Below are positions 25,719-34,662 of a stretch of DNA of 64,000 nucleotides, one piece after another. This DNA comes from Haladaptatus halobius. Its GTDB lineage: Archaea; Halobacteriota; Halobacteria; Halobacteriales; Haladaptataceae. The number at the start of each line of letters is the position of its first letter. The first letter of the stretch is position 1. Location: the NCBI RefSeq assembly GCF_020618475.1, contig NZ_CP085340.1, positions 248,001-312,000 of the forward strand, in the 5' to 3' direction. Below the pieces are notes generated by a model. The model had not been told where the DNA came from, did not search any database, and saw only the letters and a program-made list of their open reading frames with translations. The position numbers and the translations under genes were made by a program.

Positions 25719-25853
25719 AGTCCAGTAGGTCAGTTCATCAATCGGCGGGGCGAAATCACATTAACTGATGCCCAGGTCGCCGCGCTGGACTTCAACGGCG
25801 ATGGTGAGCTGACGCTGGCGGATATTTCAGCTTACAAGAGGATGTATCGGTGA
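25719..25853 (+). pseudogene. dockerin-like calcium-binding fragment, in frame after DoxX
   Basis: Directly after the DoxX stop, and in the same frame, the sequence reads ITLTDAQVAALDFNGDGELT then LADISAYKRMYR and stops. D-F-N-G-D-G-x-L-T-x-x-D is a dockerin/EF-hand calcium loop of the kind that ends haloarchaeal surface proteins. About 43 codons, no start codon. Probably the tail of a lost exported protein; readthrough fusion to DoxX is formally possible. Confidence 0.5.
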
Positions 25854-26385: not shown

Positions 26386-26549
26386 TTGAATGGCGTTTTT
26401 TGACGTTGGTTGATGTGTTCCGTATAGATTAACCGCCAGTTGAGAACTTTTACTGCGCGTGATGATCTGAGCCCAGTCAATGCGGCTGATGGAGCAGCGA
26501 CGCGAGGAAAGCTCTCGGTGCTCTCAGTTTACTTATAGTCCATGGCAAA

Positions 26550-26866
26550 CTAAAGGAGCATTTTAATCTGGCCGTCATCACGATAGTACACGGTCTCACT
26601 CCGCTGGTCGTATTCGATAACACCGTGGTTAGCGAGCTGCGGCAGATGCGTGTGGACAAGCGCGGTTCGTGCGTGGTTAGGAGCTGTAACGTCGTTGATG
26701 TCCTTGTGAATGTGCTCAACCAATTCAGTGAGTTCATCGACGTCCGTCTCGTGCTCGACAAAATAGAGTAAGACGGCACGGCATTGGTATCAGCGAGCAG
26801 TTCGTAGACGGTATCGAGCTCAAGGCACGGGGTCGAGACGTGGTTGTTATTCGGTGGTGCAGTCAT
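26550..26866 (-). pseudogene. DUF7344-type winged-helix protein, frameshifted
   Basis: The first frame from ATG 26866 reads LELDTVYELLADTNA and then turns to nonsense. After a one-base shift at about 26785 it continues RAVLLYFVEHETDVDELTEL, ALVHTHLPQLANHGVIEYDQ, and ends GQIKMLL with a stop at 26550. The joined protein (about 104 residues) is a typical haloarchaeal DUF7344 winged helix. One C is missing in AATGCCGTGCCG. It lies 440 bp upstream of the CHAT gene, and the same domain type ends the gene at 29868. Confidence 0.75.
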
Positions 26867-27239
26867 TGGTCTGATGGCAATCGATGTGTGTCAGTCGCCC
26901 TCACCCTCACCGGAGTCGCCACAGCGAGGGGCTGCATCGGCGTGGACTTTTGTGCTCCGCGATCGTGTGGTATACAATCGCAGGCTCTATCGGGTTTGTG
27001 GCATCGCTACCGACAAACCCGCCGGAATCGACGGCTGACACTCAGCGAAAATACTCTGATATGCAACTCACGGTAGTAGACACACAGCACGTGCCATCCT
27101 CAGGCTTACGAGGATCATACAAACGCAATTGCCCGGCTGAAACCAAAAGACGATCCTAGATCCAATGTATGAGGGGTACTGCCACCGAGCAAAGTCGCGT
27201 CGTTACCAACAGATGATGACGCGACTCAGGACTGCGATA
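26867..27239. other. intergenic, no gene recognised
   Basis: Several overlapping short frames (for example 26840-27159) have no family resemblance. A 6-bp hairpin ATCCTC/GAGGAT is near 27100. Otherwise nothing was seen. Confidence 0.4.
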
Positions 27240-27303
27240 GCTTTTTACCCACTGTACATCATGAGTCCAGATAATCTCACCGAAAAGACTCCCAAAGGGA
27301 GTC
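27240..27303 (+). promoter_or_regulatory. TATA-like element and start-adjacent hairpin of the CHAT gene
   Basis: CTTTTTAC at 27241-27248 is a plausible TATA box. GACTCCC-AAA-GGGAGTC (27287-27303) is a perfect 7-bp hairpin that ends exactly at the base before the GTG start. Such a helix in the 5' leader would hinder initiation unless melted. A short out-of-frame reading from ATG 27261 overlaps the start and could act as a leader. Confidence 0.45.
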
Positions 27304-29328
27304 GTGAACATCGTGCTCACGTTTGAATCACACCCCAATTCTGGACTCACGATCGTCGACACTATCGAACGCCGTCGATACGTTCTCGATACGTCGACAT
27401 TAGTCGATCCTGAACCTGCAGACGAGGATCAGTTTTACTTTCCCGTCGATCGCGCCGTTCGAATTTCGACCAAACAACTGAACCTCGATCATCGAGCCGA
27501 CACTTTTATCCGGAACACGAGGGGTGAACTACTTTTGGAAGTGGATCCTGACATCGACACGGAGCTAGCCTCAGGAACATACTATATAGAAGTAAATGCC
27601 CCCGTCAAAGTGTACCTTCGAGTTGATGGGGCACTCTCAGTGCGGGCGACCATGGAGCGTGTCGTGTTCGAATTCGACACTTCTACCGTACTCGTCGGCG
27701 CTCGCTCGTATCATCACCATCCGGCGGCGACGGTGACGACGACGGCCGACCCGAAAGATGTACTGACGGCGTTGTCTGTGCTCTCGTCGGCATTGAAGAC
27801 CACGACGTGTGAACGGTCCTATCCAACACTCAGGGGCCATCCGCCAACCATCGAACTTGGTGACGAACTCCAGATCCCCGATGAGATAACTCGAGCGCAG
27901 ACCGGAATTCGATTTGAACTACCACTATCACTTCAAATGGCGTACGTCGCTGCGCCGCTGGCGTACTATCTCGGGGCAGAGATGGTTCCCGGCGACAGTC
28001 CACGACTCGTGGCAGACGGGTTCGAATACGGGTTTTCGAACACAACGGTCGAACAGGGGATAGAGCGCGTCCTCAAACAGACGTTCTTCCTCGACTGTCT
28101 TACTCGCACAGAGGGATACTACCAGGTAGACCTCTACGAACGCGAGCAGGCCGACCTTGAATTGGATTTCGAGGAGCTGTACGAGATGCCGATTACAGAG
28201 CAATTGCCGGCGTACCTCTCCGTTCCATTCGACCGTATCGAACCACTCTTGCCACAGTGGCCGCTTACTGCCCACGTGTCGCCCACCCCTGAGCAAGTCA
28301 CTGCGATCCCCTTTATTGTACACGACCTTGGTCTCATCCGAATGCCGCAATCGTCGCCCGCCTCGGCCGACGACATTGCTTCGTTCGTCTTGGAATCGTT
28401 TCTCGGAAGGACAAGGGGTGAATCGGATGAAAGTCCGACGTTCGTCCGTCCTGAACCAACAGACTCACTCGAACAAGCGTGGTTCACCGACCACGTTCCA
28501 CTTAATGCGACGAAGGCACTACCACAAGCATTTCGAAACAAGCTTGAACGCGAACCAAAAACCGGTGCTATCGATATCTCCGTCGTCTGCAACGACGCAG
28601 AAATGGCCGCTGACGAGCAGGTAGAACAGGCATATCGATCTCGTGACGAACTCGCCCTGGATGTGACCACTCACTATGACCTCTCAACAACTGAACTACG
28701 CACCGTTCTCGAATCCGACTTGGACTTTTTTCACTACGTTGGTCATATCGACGGGAATGGATTCCGGTGCCACGACGGCTGGCTTGATGCGACGACGCTA
28801 ACGAGCGTGGGGTTTCCTACCTTTCTGCTCAACGCTTGCCAATCGTACGACCAAGGAGTCGAACTCATCGAAGGAGGAGCAGTCGGTGGAGTTGTCACAT
28901 TCAGCGAGGTCGTGGATGATGGTGCTGCACGTCTAGGATACTCGATGGCGCGATTACTCAATCTAGGATTTCCGCTTCGAGTAGCACTCGCACTCGCTCG
29001 ACGCGAAAGCATCGTCGGGAGTCACTATATTGTCATCGGCGACGGGAGTGCTGATGTAGTACAAGTCGACCTAGGCGTTCCAATGATTTGTGATATTGAA
29101 CCTACGGGTGAACGCTATGACGTGACACTACTGACATACCCTTCTCGGGAGGGAAAAATTGGAACGATGGTCGATCCACTCATCGAGACGAACGACCACT
29201 ATTTTCTTGTGCCGGGATCGCTTCGAACATTTCGGCTTTCGGCAGAGGCAGTTCGTAATTATCTTCTGTGGTACCAGTTGCCAGTAAGAAAAGAAGGGCA
29301 ACTGATCTGGGACGACGATCCTCTATGA
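27304..29328 (+). CDS. CHAT-domain cysteine protease-like protein
   Basis: A 674-residue protein from GTG 27304. The C-terminal ~200 residues fit the CHAT domain (caspase/separase-type peptidase clan CD). The catalytic His481 is in FHYVGHIDGNG, followed by a strand and LTSVGFPTFLL. The catalytic Cys512 is in LNACQSYDQGVELIEGGAVG, followed by VVTFSEVV and an IGDGSADVVQ ending. The first ~450 residues are not recognised: they are beta-rich with acidic stretches, and there are no TPR repeats. In bacteria CHAT proteases cut partner proteins during signalling or antiviral death (for example Craspase). The small membrane peptide gene abutting its stop and the nearby RecA-fold/HTH gene may be partners. 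The substrate is unknown. Confidence 0.8.
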   Translation: MNIVLTFESHPNSGLTIVDTIERRRYVLDTSTLVDPEPADEDQFYFPVDRAVRISTKQLNLDHRADTFIRNTRGELLLEVDPDIDTELASGTYYIEVNAPVKVYLRVDGALSVRATMERVVFEFDTSTVLVGARSYHHHPAATVTTTADPKDVLTALSVLSSALKTTTCERSYPTLRGHPPTIELGDELQIPDEITRAQTGIRFELPLSLQMAYVAAPLAYYLGAEMVPGDSPRLVADGFEYGFSNTTVEQGIERVLKQTFFLDCLTRTEGYYQVDLYEREQADLELDFEELYEMPITEQLPAYLSVPFDRIEPLLPQWPLTAHVSPTPEQVTAIPFIVHDLGLIRMPQSSPASADDIASFVLESFLGRTRGESDESPTFVRPEPTDSLEQAWFTDHVPLNATKALPQAFRNKLEREPKTGAIDISVVCNDAEMAADEQVEQAYRSRDELALDVTTHYDLSTTELRTVLESDLDFFHYVGHIDGNGFRCHDGWLDATTLTSVGFPTFLLNACQSYDQGVELIEGGAVGGVVTFSEVVDDGAARLGYSMARLLNLGFPLRVALALARRESIVGSHYIVIGDGSADVVQVDLGVPMICDIEPTGERYDVTLLTYPSREGKIGTMVDPLIETNDHYFLVPGSLRTFRLSAEAVRNYLLWYQLPVRKEGQLIWDDDPL

Positions 29329-29460
29329 TTAAGGACCGTACACTGCTAATACACCTAACGCAGCGGATCCGGCCTGTGAAAGCAGCATCGTAGCCATGAA
29401 CAGGACGCCGATCATTCGGCGATTCTCTACTAGGTACGACTGGAACGAATTCTTCATCAT
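29329..29460 (-). CDS. 43-residue membrane peptide (DUF7503-like)
   Basis: From ATG 29460 (or ATG 29457) the minus strand encodes a basic N-terminus, MMKNSFQSYLVENRRMIG, then one hydrophobic helix (VLFMATMLLSQAGSAALGVL), and stops at 29329. Its TAA abuts the TGA of the CHAT gene with no base between. I recall similar tiny proteins ('...HPRVIGVLF...LLLSQAG...') as the haloarchaeal DUF7503 family, found beside CHAT/RecA-fold genes. That assignment is from memory. The helix followed by QAG and small residues could also be a cleavable signal. Confidence 0.7.
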   Translation of the reverse strand: MMKNSFQSYLVENRRMIGVLFMATMLLSQAGSAALGVLAVYGP

Positions 29461-29514
29461 CGAAACTGGTATCGACCTCCCTGTACTTTGGTATGAAGTG
29501 GTTGGACCAAACTA

Positions 29515-29545
29515 AACGTCGCCTACTGCTTGCGTAGGCGACGTT
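29515..29545. promoter_or_regulatory. strong 12-bp hairpin upstream of the membrane peptide gene
   Basis: AACGTCGCCTAC and GTAGGCGACGTT form a perfect 12-bp stem with a 7-base loop. It lies 55 bp before the membrane peptide start and 320 bp before the RecA-fold gene, inside the divergent promoter region. It could be an operator, an RNA element or a terminator for antisense transcripts. The minus-strand frame 29512-29886 that covers it is not considered a gene. Confidence 0.6.
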
Positions 29546-29867
29546 AATCTACGAGAAAGGACTGCATACTCCCAGTCACTATCGTTTGACGAGTATTGAA
29601 AAGTAGTCGTACATTCTAAATATTTTGAATCAAGACGGGGAATAGGTTTAATACTGATAACTTGTGTAGTAGCTGTTGTTCGAAATGAGGGGCCGAACTT
29701 TCGACCGTGATGGGATCCGAAGAGTAGCGTTCCCCTATCTCGCAAACGAAACCTCTTCGTTTGTGAACGAGCAGCTAGTATCAATACAGACCAAATTGAT
29801 GAATTATTATAAAGACACGTATGACCCACACCAGTCAATGCTATAGAGAACGAGGAGAGTACAGATC

Positions 29868-30785
29868 GTGACGGGAGGGAACTCACTTCCTCACTTCGAT
29901 CCCGGGAGCAGCATTCTTATTGATAATGCCCTGACCTCCCCAGATGCAGCCAAACCTGCGTTCGACCTCCTCTCACATCTTACACCGGACTCAATTGTTG
30001 CAGTTACGTACAACCAGTCAGCCGATACGTTCCTTCGACAGTGGCGGAGTCAAGTTGGAACGATTCCGAAGTTCGCTCGTGTCATCACTGTCGGCCGGTC
30101 GATGCGCTCGTCGGCGACTCAATTGAGTCAACAAAACATCGTCCGTCCCGTAAAACGCCTCGATGACCTAACGGGGGTGCAATCAGCAGTCGCTTCGGCG
30201 CTAGATAACGCAACTGACAAAACGGTACTCATTTTCGACTCACTTACCACGCCGCTTACACACGTCTCACCCACTGAGATGATCTCGTTTTTTAGCTTCC
30301 TCTCAAACCATCTTACTGATACCGAAGCAGTCGGATACTTCCACATCACCACTCGTGTTTCCGATGCTACCACGGTCGCGTCCATTCAATCACTCGCCGA
30401 CGCGATAGTCGAACGCGACGAGGATGATTGGCTCGTTCGGCCATCTGTTGAGTGGATTTCCGAATCTTTATCGGCCGACCTCCTGTTTGACGTCCTCCGT
30501 TCGAGACAACGCCGAGAGGTACTTCGATACCTGCTTCGCGCTACTGAACCCGTCTCGTTGGACGAATTGACCACTACCATCGCCAAACGTGAATCAGGTA
30601 AACAAACGATAAACAGAAACGAATACCGGAGATACTACATGAGCCTGTCTCAAAAACATCTCCCGAGACTGGATGACGTGGGTTTCATCGAGTACGATAG
30701 CCCGACATCCCGGATTTTGATTTCCAAGGCGGCGCAACATATTGAGCCATTTCTCACTCTCGCAGAGGAACTCAGTGAACGGTGA
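29868..30785 (+). CDS. RecA-fold (DUF7504-like) and winged-helix (DUF7344-like) protein
   Basis: A 305-residue protein from GTG 29868. Residues ~10-190 look like a RecA/KaiC-type fold without a P-loop: SSILIDNALTSPDAAKPAFD takes the place of Walker A, and KTVLIFDSLTTPLTHVSPTE resembles Walker B. Residues ~200-295 are a DUF7344-type winged helix (LFDVLRSRQRREVLRYLLRA, then HLPRLDDVGFIEYDSPTS). Such proteins are haloarchaeal and thought to be non-ATPase signalling or regulatory factors. TTATTATAAA at about 29807 is a possible TATA box. Proximity to the CHAT gene suggests a shared pathway. Confidence 0.75.
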   Translation: MTGGNSLPHFDPGSSILIDNALTSPDAAKPAFDLLSHLTPDSIVAVTYNQSADTFLRQWRSQVGTIPKFARVITVGRSMRSSATQLSQQNIVRPVKRLDDLTGVQSAVASALDNATDKTVLIFDSLTTPLTHVSPTEMISFFSFLSNHLTDTEAVGYFHITTRVSDATTVASIQSLADAIVERDEDDWLVRPSVEWISESLSADLLFDVLRSRQRREVLRYLLRATEPVSLDELTTTIAKRESGKQTINRNEYRRYYMSLSQKHLPRLDDVGFIEYDSPTSRILISKAAQHIEPFLTLAEELSER

Positions 30786-33002: not shown

Positions 33003-33144
33003 AAGAAAAGTAACCTAATTAATAATCCCACGGTAACACTGGATACCACATGAGCGCCTCAGTAGAAGTTTCGTGAAAACATGAACCATCGACGGTACTT
33101 ATTGAGACGTTCAGCATAGACAGAAGGTGGAGGACTGTACAGAC

Positions 33145-34662
33145 ATGAGTCTTGACACTGACCGCGATACCGATAGTCGCATATCAACCGACAAAGAGAC
33201 GATTCAGAGGTGGGCAGAGAAACACGAAGCAGTCCCAGTAGAGGACACTGCGAGCAGAGAAGAGACCGAGCGTTTCCACATCATCCCGGAAGAAAATGTG
33301 GGTGACGCACACAAACAAGTTGAGTGGGAATCGTTCTTCGAGATGCTAGAGGACTGGGGATACGTCGTGATCTATCACGACGAAGAGGGAGCCGAACCAT
33401 TTGAGGTCGTGAAGCGCAACAAGGCGATAGCCCACGTGGATGTGGACAGGGATGAATTTGAGGATCAGTTGCTGGCAGGAAATCCGGTAACGAGCACGGT
33501 CACGGAGACGACTGTCGTCGAAAGCGTTCTCGTTGAGGAGACGACGATCGAGAGCGAACTTGTAGAGCGTGAAATAATCGATCAGCGTGTACGCGACGTC
33601 GAGCTCATCGGACGTAAGTGTGCCAGCTGTAATTTGGTCGCAGACCCAGATATAGATGAGCAAGGGTGGTTCGACTTAGATCGATTCCTTGAGATGCACG
33701 ATGGAATGGGAGACGAATCTGGGCAGCCAACTACAGAGGAGTTTGCCGCTGACGAGATTCCGTATCGTCCCAGGATCGATGTTGAGGAGACTTGGTTGGT
33801 CACTCGTGAGCTTGTCGAGCAGTTCACAGTAGAGAGCCATATCGAGGACATGGAGATCAAAGAGTCCGACACAACAGAGGATCATGATCTTGACGTCAGT
33901 GGTCTCCACCGGAAAATCGCTGAAAGCGGACTCCTCGACGTCGACCGGTCACCGAACGAGGTCATGACAGAGTTCGACATCGAAAGTGAGATCGACAAAG
34001 ATGATCGAATCAGTACGCACTTCGAACGTGAACGGGTTGTCCAAGATGAAGTCGTCGACCGAAAGCGTCTCTACACCGATGTCACGGATGGTGATCTCTT
34101 AGAGATGGAAACCATTCGACGCAGGGACATCGAGACTGAGCTCGTCGGTGACGAGGAGTTCGTCGATGAACGAGACGAATCGACTGAAGCAGAAGAGCCA
34201 GAGGAGGAGGTGACGGAAGAGTCAGACAAAATGACTGATGCGGAAGGAGACGAACCAACTGAAAGGGAAGAGGGGGAAGACACACAAGAGCTAGAAGAGA
34301 CCGGGATTGGTGAACGAAACGACCCAACGGAAGCGGCAGAGGGGAAAGAGGTAGAAGAGCTAGAAGGGACGCAGGGGTCAGAGAGTAATGAGCAAGACGA
34401 AACGACAACTCCAGTCAGTCTTACTGACGACGAGATCGGCAAAACGGTCGTCAACGCGAGCGAAGAACCTATCGGAGAAATTACCGAGGTCGAAGCAACG
34501 GAAGCGAAGGTCTACGTTGACGCCCACCCGAGCATCACCGATCGGATTCGGACCAGATTCAACTGGGGCGACGGTGACCAAGGCGATCTCTCGGTCCAAG
34601 CCGATCAGATCGACCGCATCACCGACGAGCAGATCGAACTCAAGGAAAGGGAGGAACTCTAA
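33145..34662 (+). CDS. large acidic protein with CxxC motif and PRC-barrel-like end
   Basis: A 505-residue protein from ATG 33145. The N-terminal ~130 residues are globular (HIIPEENVGDAHKQVEWESF, WGYVVIYHDEEGAEPFEVVK). The middle has three repeats of charged beta-hairpins (VVESVLVEETTIESELVERE; LVTRELVEQFTVESHIEDME; FERERVVQDEVVDRKRLYTD), the first ending in a C159-x-x-C162 pair. Residues ~345-430 are almost only Glu, Asp and Thr. The C-terminus (IGKTVVNASEEPIGEITEVE, RIRTRFNWGD) resembles a PRC-barrel. Similar proteins with YsnF/PRC-like parts are linked to stress or envelope functions; this link is tentative. Monocistronic. Confidence 0.75.
   Translation: MSLDTDRDTDSRISTDKETIQRWAEKHEAVPVEDTASREETERFHIIPEENVGDAHKQVEWESFFEMLEDWGYVVIYHDEEGAEPFEVVKRNKAIAHVDVDRDEFEDQLLAGNPVTSTVTETTVVESVLVEETTIESELVEREIIDQRVRDVELIGRKCASCNLVADPDIDEQGWFDLDRFLEMHDGMGDESGQPTTEEFAADEIPYRPRIDVEETWLVTRELVEQFTVESHIEDMEIKESDTTEDHDLDVSGLHRKIAESGLLDVDRSPNEVMTEFDIESEIDKDDRISTHFERERVVQDEVVDRKRLYTDVTDGDLLEMETIRRRDIETELVGDEEFVDERDESTEAEEPEEEVTEESDKMTDAEGDEPTEREEGEDTQELEETGIGERNDPTEAAEGKEVEELEGTQGSESNEQDETTTPVSLTDDEIGKTVVNASEEPIGEITEVEATEAKVYVDAHPSITDRIRTRFNWGDGDQGDLSVQADQIDRITDEQIELKEREEL

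Follow-up and report, generated by a model that had tools for sequence, protein, structure and literature searches.

A diverged CHAT-type protease of haloarchaea is encoded tail to tail with small proteins that often end in Gly-Pro

Results

A protease gene and a micro-gene meet at their stop codons

We analysed a 64,000-nucleotide stretch of the Haladaptatus halobius genome (contig NZ_CP085340.1, positions 248,001 to 312,000; hereafter the window), in which a long open reading frame (ORF) for a CHAT-like cysteine protease faces a very small gene on the opposite strand. According to the ORF listing the two stop codons are in direct contact (gap 0), and a gene for a RecA-like protein follows. 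The original prediction, made from the DNA letters alone, had described the small gene and its contact with the protease gene, and the ORFs are as described. The unit consists of the following features:

27304..29328, plus strand: CHAT-like cysteine protease ORF, 674 amino acids (aa), GTG start; catalytic codons His-481 at 28744-28746 (YVGHIDG) and Cys-512 at 28837-28839 (LNACQS)
29329..29460, minus strand: DUF7503 partner peptide, 43 aa, single hydrophobic helix, C-terminal tail AVYGP
29868..30785, plus strand: DUF7504 (KaiC/RecA-like) protein with a DUF7344 winged helix, 305 aa

Searched alone against the Pfam, NCBIfam and PADLOC models, the 674-aa ORF matched nothing; the Pfam CHAT family PF12770 gave no match to it up to an E-value of 10, and no relative of solved structure was found by sequence up to the same value. 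Because the ORF itself matches no model, the assignment was made through its relatives and by profile-profile comparison. PF12770 was matched weakly by 24 of 73 homologues (best E 0.0015), the runner-up family by four. When the C-terminal 290 residues were compared with 20 authentic CHAT domains, which were PF12770 matches in other genomes, hhalign returned a probability of 96.9 and an E-value of 1.9e-10 over 151 columns, with His aligned on His and Cys on Cys, whereas control profiles (the N-terminal part and a DUF7504 alignment) reached probabilities of 0.1-0.2 against CHAT. All 73 rows of the alignment keep H477, G480, H481, N510, C512 and S514. These results bear out the predicted His-481/Cys-512 dyad and identify the protein, at the level of sequence, as a diverged CHAT-type cysteine protease. 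The best PF12770 score in the H. halobius genome is 15.1 bits against a curated cut-off of 24; this cut-off is a curation threshold and not a biological trait, and since the score falls under it we label the protein CHAT-like, of a diverged branch. Residues 1-384 matched no known domain (the N-terminal profile reached a probability of 0.1 against CHAT), as had been anticipated for the N-terminus. Among plasmid-borne relatives NCBI names one "CHAT domain-containing protein" and one "caspase family protein", and nearly all others "hypothetical".

The 43-aa ORF belongs to DUF7503 (PF24335; 51.1 bits against a Pfam cut-off of 27). Purifying selection acts on the family at the protein level, with proportions of synonymous (pS) and nonsynonymous (pN) differences of 0.46 and 0.11 in 26 independent pairs; on these values we rejected a spurious ORF and conclude from the codon pattern that the small gene encodes a real protein. 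In DUF7503 proteins, whose median length is 44 aa, the N-terminus varies; a basic step (P-R/K in 68 of 70, R-R in the window copy) leads into a hydrophobic helix with Gly in 70 of 70 rows and Phe in 69 of 70, and a second variable stretch precedes the Gly-Pro (GP) end.

DUF7503 and CHAT genes are paired tail to tail and lost together

Among the matches listed for 41 other genomes, namely those present in both our DUF7503 and CHAT surveys, 49 of 50 DUF7503 genes lie convergently and directly behind a CHAT 3' end. In the sole exception (genome G075) the DUF7503 gene is inverted and a 321-aa ORF of no assigned family stands in between. The stop-to-stop gap is at most 5 nucleotides (nt), or an overlap, in 40 of 70 pairs; it is exactly 0 in 17, with a median of 2, and ranges up to 109 nt apart from single cases of 206 and 2666. 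Convergent neighbours of the ordinary kind, taken from two 50-kb plasmid stretches of Halorussus, are that close in 1 of 17 cases, with a median of 60; the corresponding Fisher p of 9e-5 serves only as a guide value, because the 70 pairs are interrelated and the gene table for these plasmids is not complete. Given the orientation and the close gaps, we rejected chance adjacency.

Presence and absence also go together. Of the 53 Halobacteriales covered by both surveys, 44 have both genes, seven neither and none the peptide alone; the two with CHAT alone hold just a sister-clade CHAT (G029) or just a broken one (G074). Among the matches listed for the window's family, 89 of 143 near-full-length CHATs have a convergent DUF7503 gene within 400 nt and none has one on the same strand; ranked by similarity to the window CHAT, successive groups are paired in 30/30, 26/30, 20/30, 12/30 and 1/23 cases. 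Conversely, at least 89 of 130 listed DUF7503 genes adjoin a listed CHAT.

The window's own genome (7.28 Mb, 9 contigs) carries 15 CHAT loci, 12 intact and 3 broken. Eleven of the intact copies fall in the window's clade and one in a sister clade, as placed in our tree for those copies included there. All 11 intact window-clade CHATs have a peptide, one of them 2.7 kb off, while none of the three broken copies retains an intact one: two lack it and the third has a truncated one. The tail-to-tail linkage, the matching presence and absence and the joint loss from broken copies support the earlier suggestion that enzyme and peptide work together.

Some loci depart from the simple pair. In G039 (locus L192, ~1035-1160 and 1172-1300) tandem DUF7503 genes stand beside one CHAT; the peptides have equal score and an identical C-terminal end, and the second gene overlaps the CHAT stop. 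In Natronobiforma cellulositropha (L040, 70-6034 and beyond) two successive CHATs each have a convergent DUF7503-like peptide, the second detected only with a richer profile. Upstream of the DUF7503 gene in several of the loci L060-L067 we saw by eye a conserved AT-rich block (AATATAGAATATTTTATA-like, then ATAGCTATTA), possibly a promoter plus regulator site.

The pair is widespread. CHAT relatives and DUF7503 each occur in 28 of 28 genomes of the window's family, and DUF7503 in 120 of 145 genomes sampled across the class. DUF7503 and DUF7504 also have matches in Haloferax volcanii. Across the phylum 50 of 294 genomes match the CHAT profile, comprising 46 of 53 Halobacteriales and four from one other family. 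Each of these four (G177, G186, G195, G204) has one distant CHAT (L151-L154) that forms the tree outgroup, and neither DUF7503 nor another convincing partner peptide was found at these loci. Phage records and IMG/VR contained no relatives, on which ground a viral origin was rejected.

Different partners share a C-terminal Gly-Pro tail

GP stands at the C-terminus of 61 of 70 DUF7503 proteins. By column entropies the residues just before it are variable and GP itself is almost invariant, and tails differ among DUF7503 paralogues within one genome. The sister CHAT clade of the tree has no DUF7503. We found, however, that CHATs without DUF7503 often have another convergent small ORF ending Gly-Pro-stop. 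Counting minus-strand frames of at least 20 codons that lie -60 to +300 nt from the CHAT stop and end in GP, we obtained such a frame at 18 of 37 sister-clade 3' ends, against 0.9 expected among 174 near frames at the null rate of frames elsewhere in the loci (14 of 2747 end in GP). The 37 ends were assigned by tree (17) or by score (20) and exclude a Halosimplex locus (L048) and the four outgroup loci. With these five included the count is 19 of 42, and the binomial p of 3e-18 is overstated because the loci are related. In a second independent sample, 20 of the 54 family CHATs without DUF7503, nine had such a frame compared with none of 225 far frames.

These partners fall into several types. 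Type C (L038, L160, L166, L185, L186) mostly combines a step of the HPR or NPR kind with a hydrophobic stretch and a ..TGP or ..AGP end; as two of its members score just below the DUF7503 threshold (E 0.11 and 0.14), type C proteins may be distant DUF7503. The L167 partner is similar, with an end that is not GP. Of the nine frames in the second sample, seven abut or overlap the CHAT stop (gap -4 or 1); these combine a step of the HPR/HPK/HPW or RPK kind with a hydrophobic stretch and a ..GP end. Five of the seven (L205, L206, L208, L209, L212) carry C-x-x-C just before the tail, and their stop overlaps the CHAT stop by 4 nt; by their sequences they are a further type.

Type B, from 11 different loci and the near-twin L157, has dissimilar bodies, mostly without a hydrophobic helix, and ends mostly in [AS]-K-[RG]-[VI]-S-[ST]-Y-[GSR]-G-P, the last nine residues being KRVSTYGGP; in most members a basic residue immediately precedes VSTYGGP or one of its variants. 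The last nine codons are constrained (pS 0.59, pN 0.11, 55 pairs), codons 13-38 from the end are near saturation in an ungapped comparison (pS 0.77, pN 0.71), and among close relatives the entire ORF is weakly constrained (pS 0.34-0.41, pN 0.19-0.21). Stop codon and third positions vary, and the constraint therefore acts on the protein and not on a DNA element. On the tree the type B rows fall together in a single CHAT subclade (9 of 9, support 99). Because the other convergent partners differ and one type is free of a helix while the GP tail is retained, the element common to the different partners is, judging from their sequences, this tail and not the membrane helix. The predicted membrane peptide is thus real as DUF7503, and the helix did not hold as the common feature.

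Among sister-clade 3' ends, L174, L175 and L181 are followed downstream by a shared, conserved sequence (CCCCAGAAGTTGTC); it is no GP tail and may mark another convergent neighbour. L214 and L215, which have no GP partner, show by eye a convergent frame 30-43 nt off that resembles the end of a thioredoxin. Covariation between the CHAT active site and tail loss was pursued and dropped: A511G also occurs with GP tails, and G486 changes are found in one clade.

DUF7504 and other neighbours

Recurrence of the three genes had been set beforehand as a test of the original prediction, which withstood it. We counted families at 45 CHAT loci for which wide flanks were available: 40 have DUF7503 and 29 have DUF7504 (30 counting L045), and other families recur in at most five. 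The 305-aa protein of the window matches DUF7504 (PF24336; 60.6 bits against 27) and DUF7344 (PF24035; 81.8 against 27.8), the winged helix having been correctly foreseen. The best match of the DUF7504 profile among solved structures is KaiC, weakly (E 0.008); 2 of 24 aligned members match Elong_Iki1 (best E 3e-5) and 3 of 24 PAXNEB (best 2e-4), and inspection of the alignment by eye revealed no Walker A motif. This agrees with the predicted RecA fold without a P-loop and supports, at the sequence level, a P-loop-less KaiC/RecA-like protein, whose linkage to CHAT may be that of a regulator.

Its position varies. DUF7504 most commonly lies just upstream of CHAT on the same strand; it is divergent in L106 and L107, on the peptide strand in L120, and beyond the peptide on the CHAT strand in the window, L025, L117 and L119. 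It stands on the same side as in the window also in L025, L050, L052, L053 and L054. The usual DUF7504 protein terminates ~25 residues past the RecA-like domain; a winged helix was found on just 2 of 24 aligned members, those of the window and of L025. DUF7344 was found in 5 of 100 scanned flanking proteins. In L026, L027, L028, L029 and L035 a ~124-aa DUF7344-type winged-helix gene adjoins the unit; in four of these five loci it runs divergently from DUF7504.

Upstream of the window's CHAT gene lies a further feature:

26477..26866, minus strand: probably a broken gene for a DUF7344 winged helix, whose C-terminal half can be recognised at 26550-26723

The original prediction had called this gene frameshifted. 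A 57-aa ORF (26550-26723, minus strand) covers only positions 44-75 of the 76 in the DUF7344 profile (Pfam, E 1.4e-9), which makes the C-terminal half recognisable; the remainder appears by eye to lie in another frame within 26477-26866. Since tblastn with four intact DUF7344-type neighbours from sister loci gave no significant match in this region, a broken gene is likely rather than proven. Elsewhere in the window, a short plus-strand frame without a clear start (25734-25853) looks dockerin-repeat-like by eye (LDFNGDGELTLADISAYKRM), and a 511-aa acidic, repeat-rich protein (33127-34662, plus strand) has no Pfam match above the cut-off. The window DNA matched no known RNA family at the gathering threshold.

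Discussion

A proposed module of a protease and a dedicated partner

Our data point to an undescribed protease-and-partner module, a variant of CHAT protease-partner systems. The original observation is confirmed, and its interpretation is partly supported and redirected to the C-terminal GP tail. We propose that a caspase-like CHAT enzyme, which has no evident membrane segment, would dock a dedicated partner, the very small protein whose gene runs towards the CHAT gene on the other strand, through that protein's ..G-P-COOH tail and cleave it; from sequence and analogy we regard this proposal as evenly poised between right and wrong. DUF7504, in most linked cases just upstream, would probably regulate the enzyme. 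Activated CHAT would cut the partner upstream of the tail, or the tail would switch CHAT, and cleavage would free or silence either a membrane-helix peptide (DUF7503 and its distant kin) or, in one sister type, a soluble peptide. Paralogues with their own tails would allow several such units side by side in one cell. Docking and cleavage, the direction of regulation and the physiological output are what we infer from these patterns.

The docking step was suggested by analogy, because Csx30 docks on the CHAT part of Craspase by its C-terminal part. According to two Craspase reports, the C-terminal region of Csx30 is what the CHAT part of Csx29 recognises; a 20-residue C-terminal truncation abolishes Csx30 cleavage, the cut site differs between orthologues, and two tested pairs do not cross-react (PMC10028731, PMC11106740). 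Csx29 (TPR-CHAT) with Csx30 is likewise a CHAT protease with a genetically linked partner. The haloarchaeal partners are, in contrast, mostly ~38-60 aa long and convergently encoded, compared with 565 aa for D. ishimotonii Csx30; moreover, the N-terminus of the haloarchaeal CHAT matches no model, and no type III-E effector was found with PADLOC among the 100 flanking proteins scanned.

Several observations weigh against this proposal. If DUF7503 inserts with its N-terminus inside and its C-terminus outside, as the basic N-terminal side suggests, the tail would lie beyond the reach of a cytosolic CHAT; the peptide may then be bound before membrane insertion, or the tail be exported as a signal. 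Protein-protein action alone does not account for so strict a convergent layout: since DUF7504 moves freely while the peptide stays put, the antiparallel layout demands an additional reason, for which overlapping transcripts are the obvious candidate. Partners are, furthermore, not universal. Among the matches listed, 54 of 143 family CHATs lack DUF7503, including 22 of the 23 least similar to the window's; an intact window-clade CHAT in Halosimplex (L048) has no peptide that we could find; and no frame ending in GP stands at 19 of the 37 sister-clade ends or at 11 of the 20 ends in the second sample. Such CHATs may have a partner elsewhere or none. Some of the frames that were counted look chance-like (L173, L203, L215 and the outgroup L152). 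Nine of 70 DUF7503 proteins lack GP: seven in one CHAT clade (L026-L029, L040, L041, L049), which also contains L035 with GP, plus the broken L037 and L068. The CHAT changes that accompany this loss (A511G, G486) are confounded by ancestry.

Alternative explanations

The peptide could instead be a regulatory subunit or membrane tether whose tail switches or places CHAT, the true targets lying elsewhere, a reading that we hold to be rather unlikely. It fits the identical linkage and tail evidence, and the DUF7503 helix is more conserved, with its nearly invariant Gly and Phe (70/70 and 69/70), than a leader to be cut off would require; yet the poorly conserved type B body is odd for a constitutive subunit, and in the examined pairs the peptide gene is never on the strand of the adjoining CHAT, bar one rearranged locus. 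That nearly invariant orientation, kept while DUF7504 is found in at least four places relative to the pair, is in turn what speaks for the layout itself as a device in which 3'-overlapping transcripts silence each other. Such a device would resemble an excludon, or a type I toxin-antitoxin system in which the small hydrophobic peptide is the toxin. The close gaps (40/70 against 1/17 in the incomplete plasmid gene table) and the AT-rich, promoter-like DNA seen by eye upstream of many peptide genes, outside the window's subfamily, are consistent with it. However, gaps reach 109 nt, once 206 and once 2666, a helix-free partner is no hydrophobic toxin, and antisense control would not keep a C-terminal tail at the protein level; we judge this device improbable. 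Type I systems do resemble the unit in that the gene of a tiny single-helix protein ends against one on the opposite strand, but the opposite gene here encodes a 674-aa protease and not a small RNA.

Just as improbable in our estimate is DUF7503 as the precursor of a secreted peptide signal, with a signal-peptide-like helix, an AxA-like site and a variable mature tail of ~6-9 residues ending in GP that CHAT and DUF7504 would sense or process. The median length of 44 aa, the variability immediately ahead of an almost invariant GP, the different tails of paralogues in one genome and the basic residue before the tail of most type B partners all suit a signal, while the helix is conserved beyond the needs of an export signal, most of the type B proteins lack hydrophobic character and no receptor was identified. 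A GP before the stop also occurs in SecM, an arrest peptide; because the bodies upstream of the tail differ, we do not favour an arrest-peptide reading. In the broadest extension of the protease-partner proposal, the units would form protease-relay channels: every CHAT enzyme would have a micro-protein of its own, the GP tail would be a transferable docking code that persisted while helical and soluble bodies were swapped, up to a dozen insulated proteolytic signals would run in parallel in one cell, DUF7504 would be the input sensor and the antiparallel layout would couple on and off states. We consider this extension unlikely, if somewhat less so than the antisense device or the peptide signal.

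The original prediction had also raised an antiviral unit. Multiple copies, with 3 of 15 loci broken in the window's genome, recall fast-turnover immune loci, and CHAT proteases occur in CRISPR type III-E according to one report (PMC10028731). Against a role in defence, a PADLOC scan of 100 of the 179 flanking gene calls (window neighbours and L114-L120 excluded) gave only four models, all Csa3/CARF, with one match each at E<=1e-5; the CHAT, DUF7503 and DUF7504 proteins matched no PADLOC family up to E 1; the flanking Pfam families are mostly unrelated, scattered metabolic and regulatory ones; and CHAT is present in as many as 46 of 53 sampled Halobacteriales. Together with the lack of relatives in phage records or IMG/VR, this leaves the antiviral reading unsupported, and we think it very improbable.

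Significance

CHAT proteases are switches of immunity and cell fate, and to our knowledge few of their targets are known. The likeness of DUF7504 extends to KaiC, its nearest profile, and to the Elongator subunits Elp4-6, which have a RecA fold without a P-loop and whose families (Elong_Iki1/PAXNEB) a few members match; DUF7504 differs from both in its linkage to CHAT. In the openly licensed PubMed Central papers searched (CC0, CC BY, CC BY-SA) we found no mention of DUF7503, DUF7504, DUF7344 or DUF7090, no account of a CHAT domain in haloarchaea or Haloferax, and no description of the DUF7503-CHAT pairing or of the shared tail. Returning to the protease-partner proposal, a large haloarchaeal CHAT family has a candidate for its target or ligand in the adjoining gene, one of the micro-genes that annotation often misses; in the incomplete plasmid gene table, 6 of 10 plasmid matches coincide with no listed feature. 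The conserved tail narrows what CHAT recognises to a single question of peptide binding or cleavage, and the nearly fixed tail-to-tail layout lends itself to testing whether selection acts on gene orientation.

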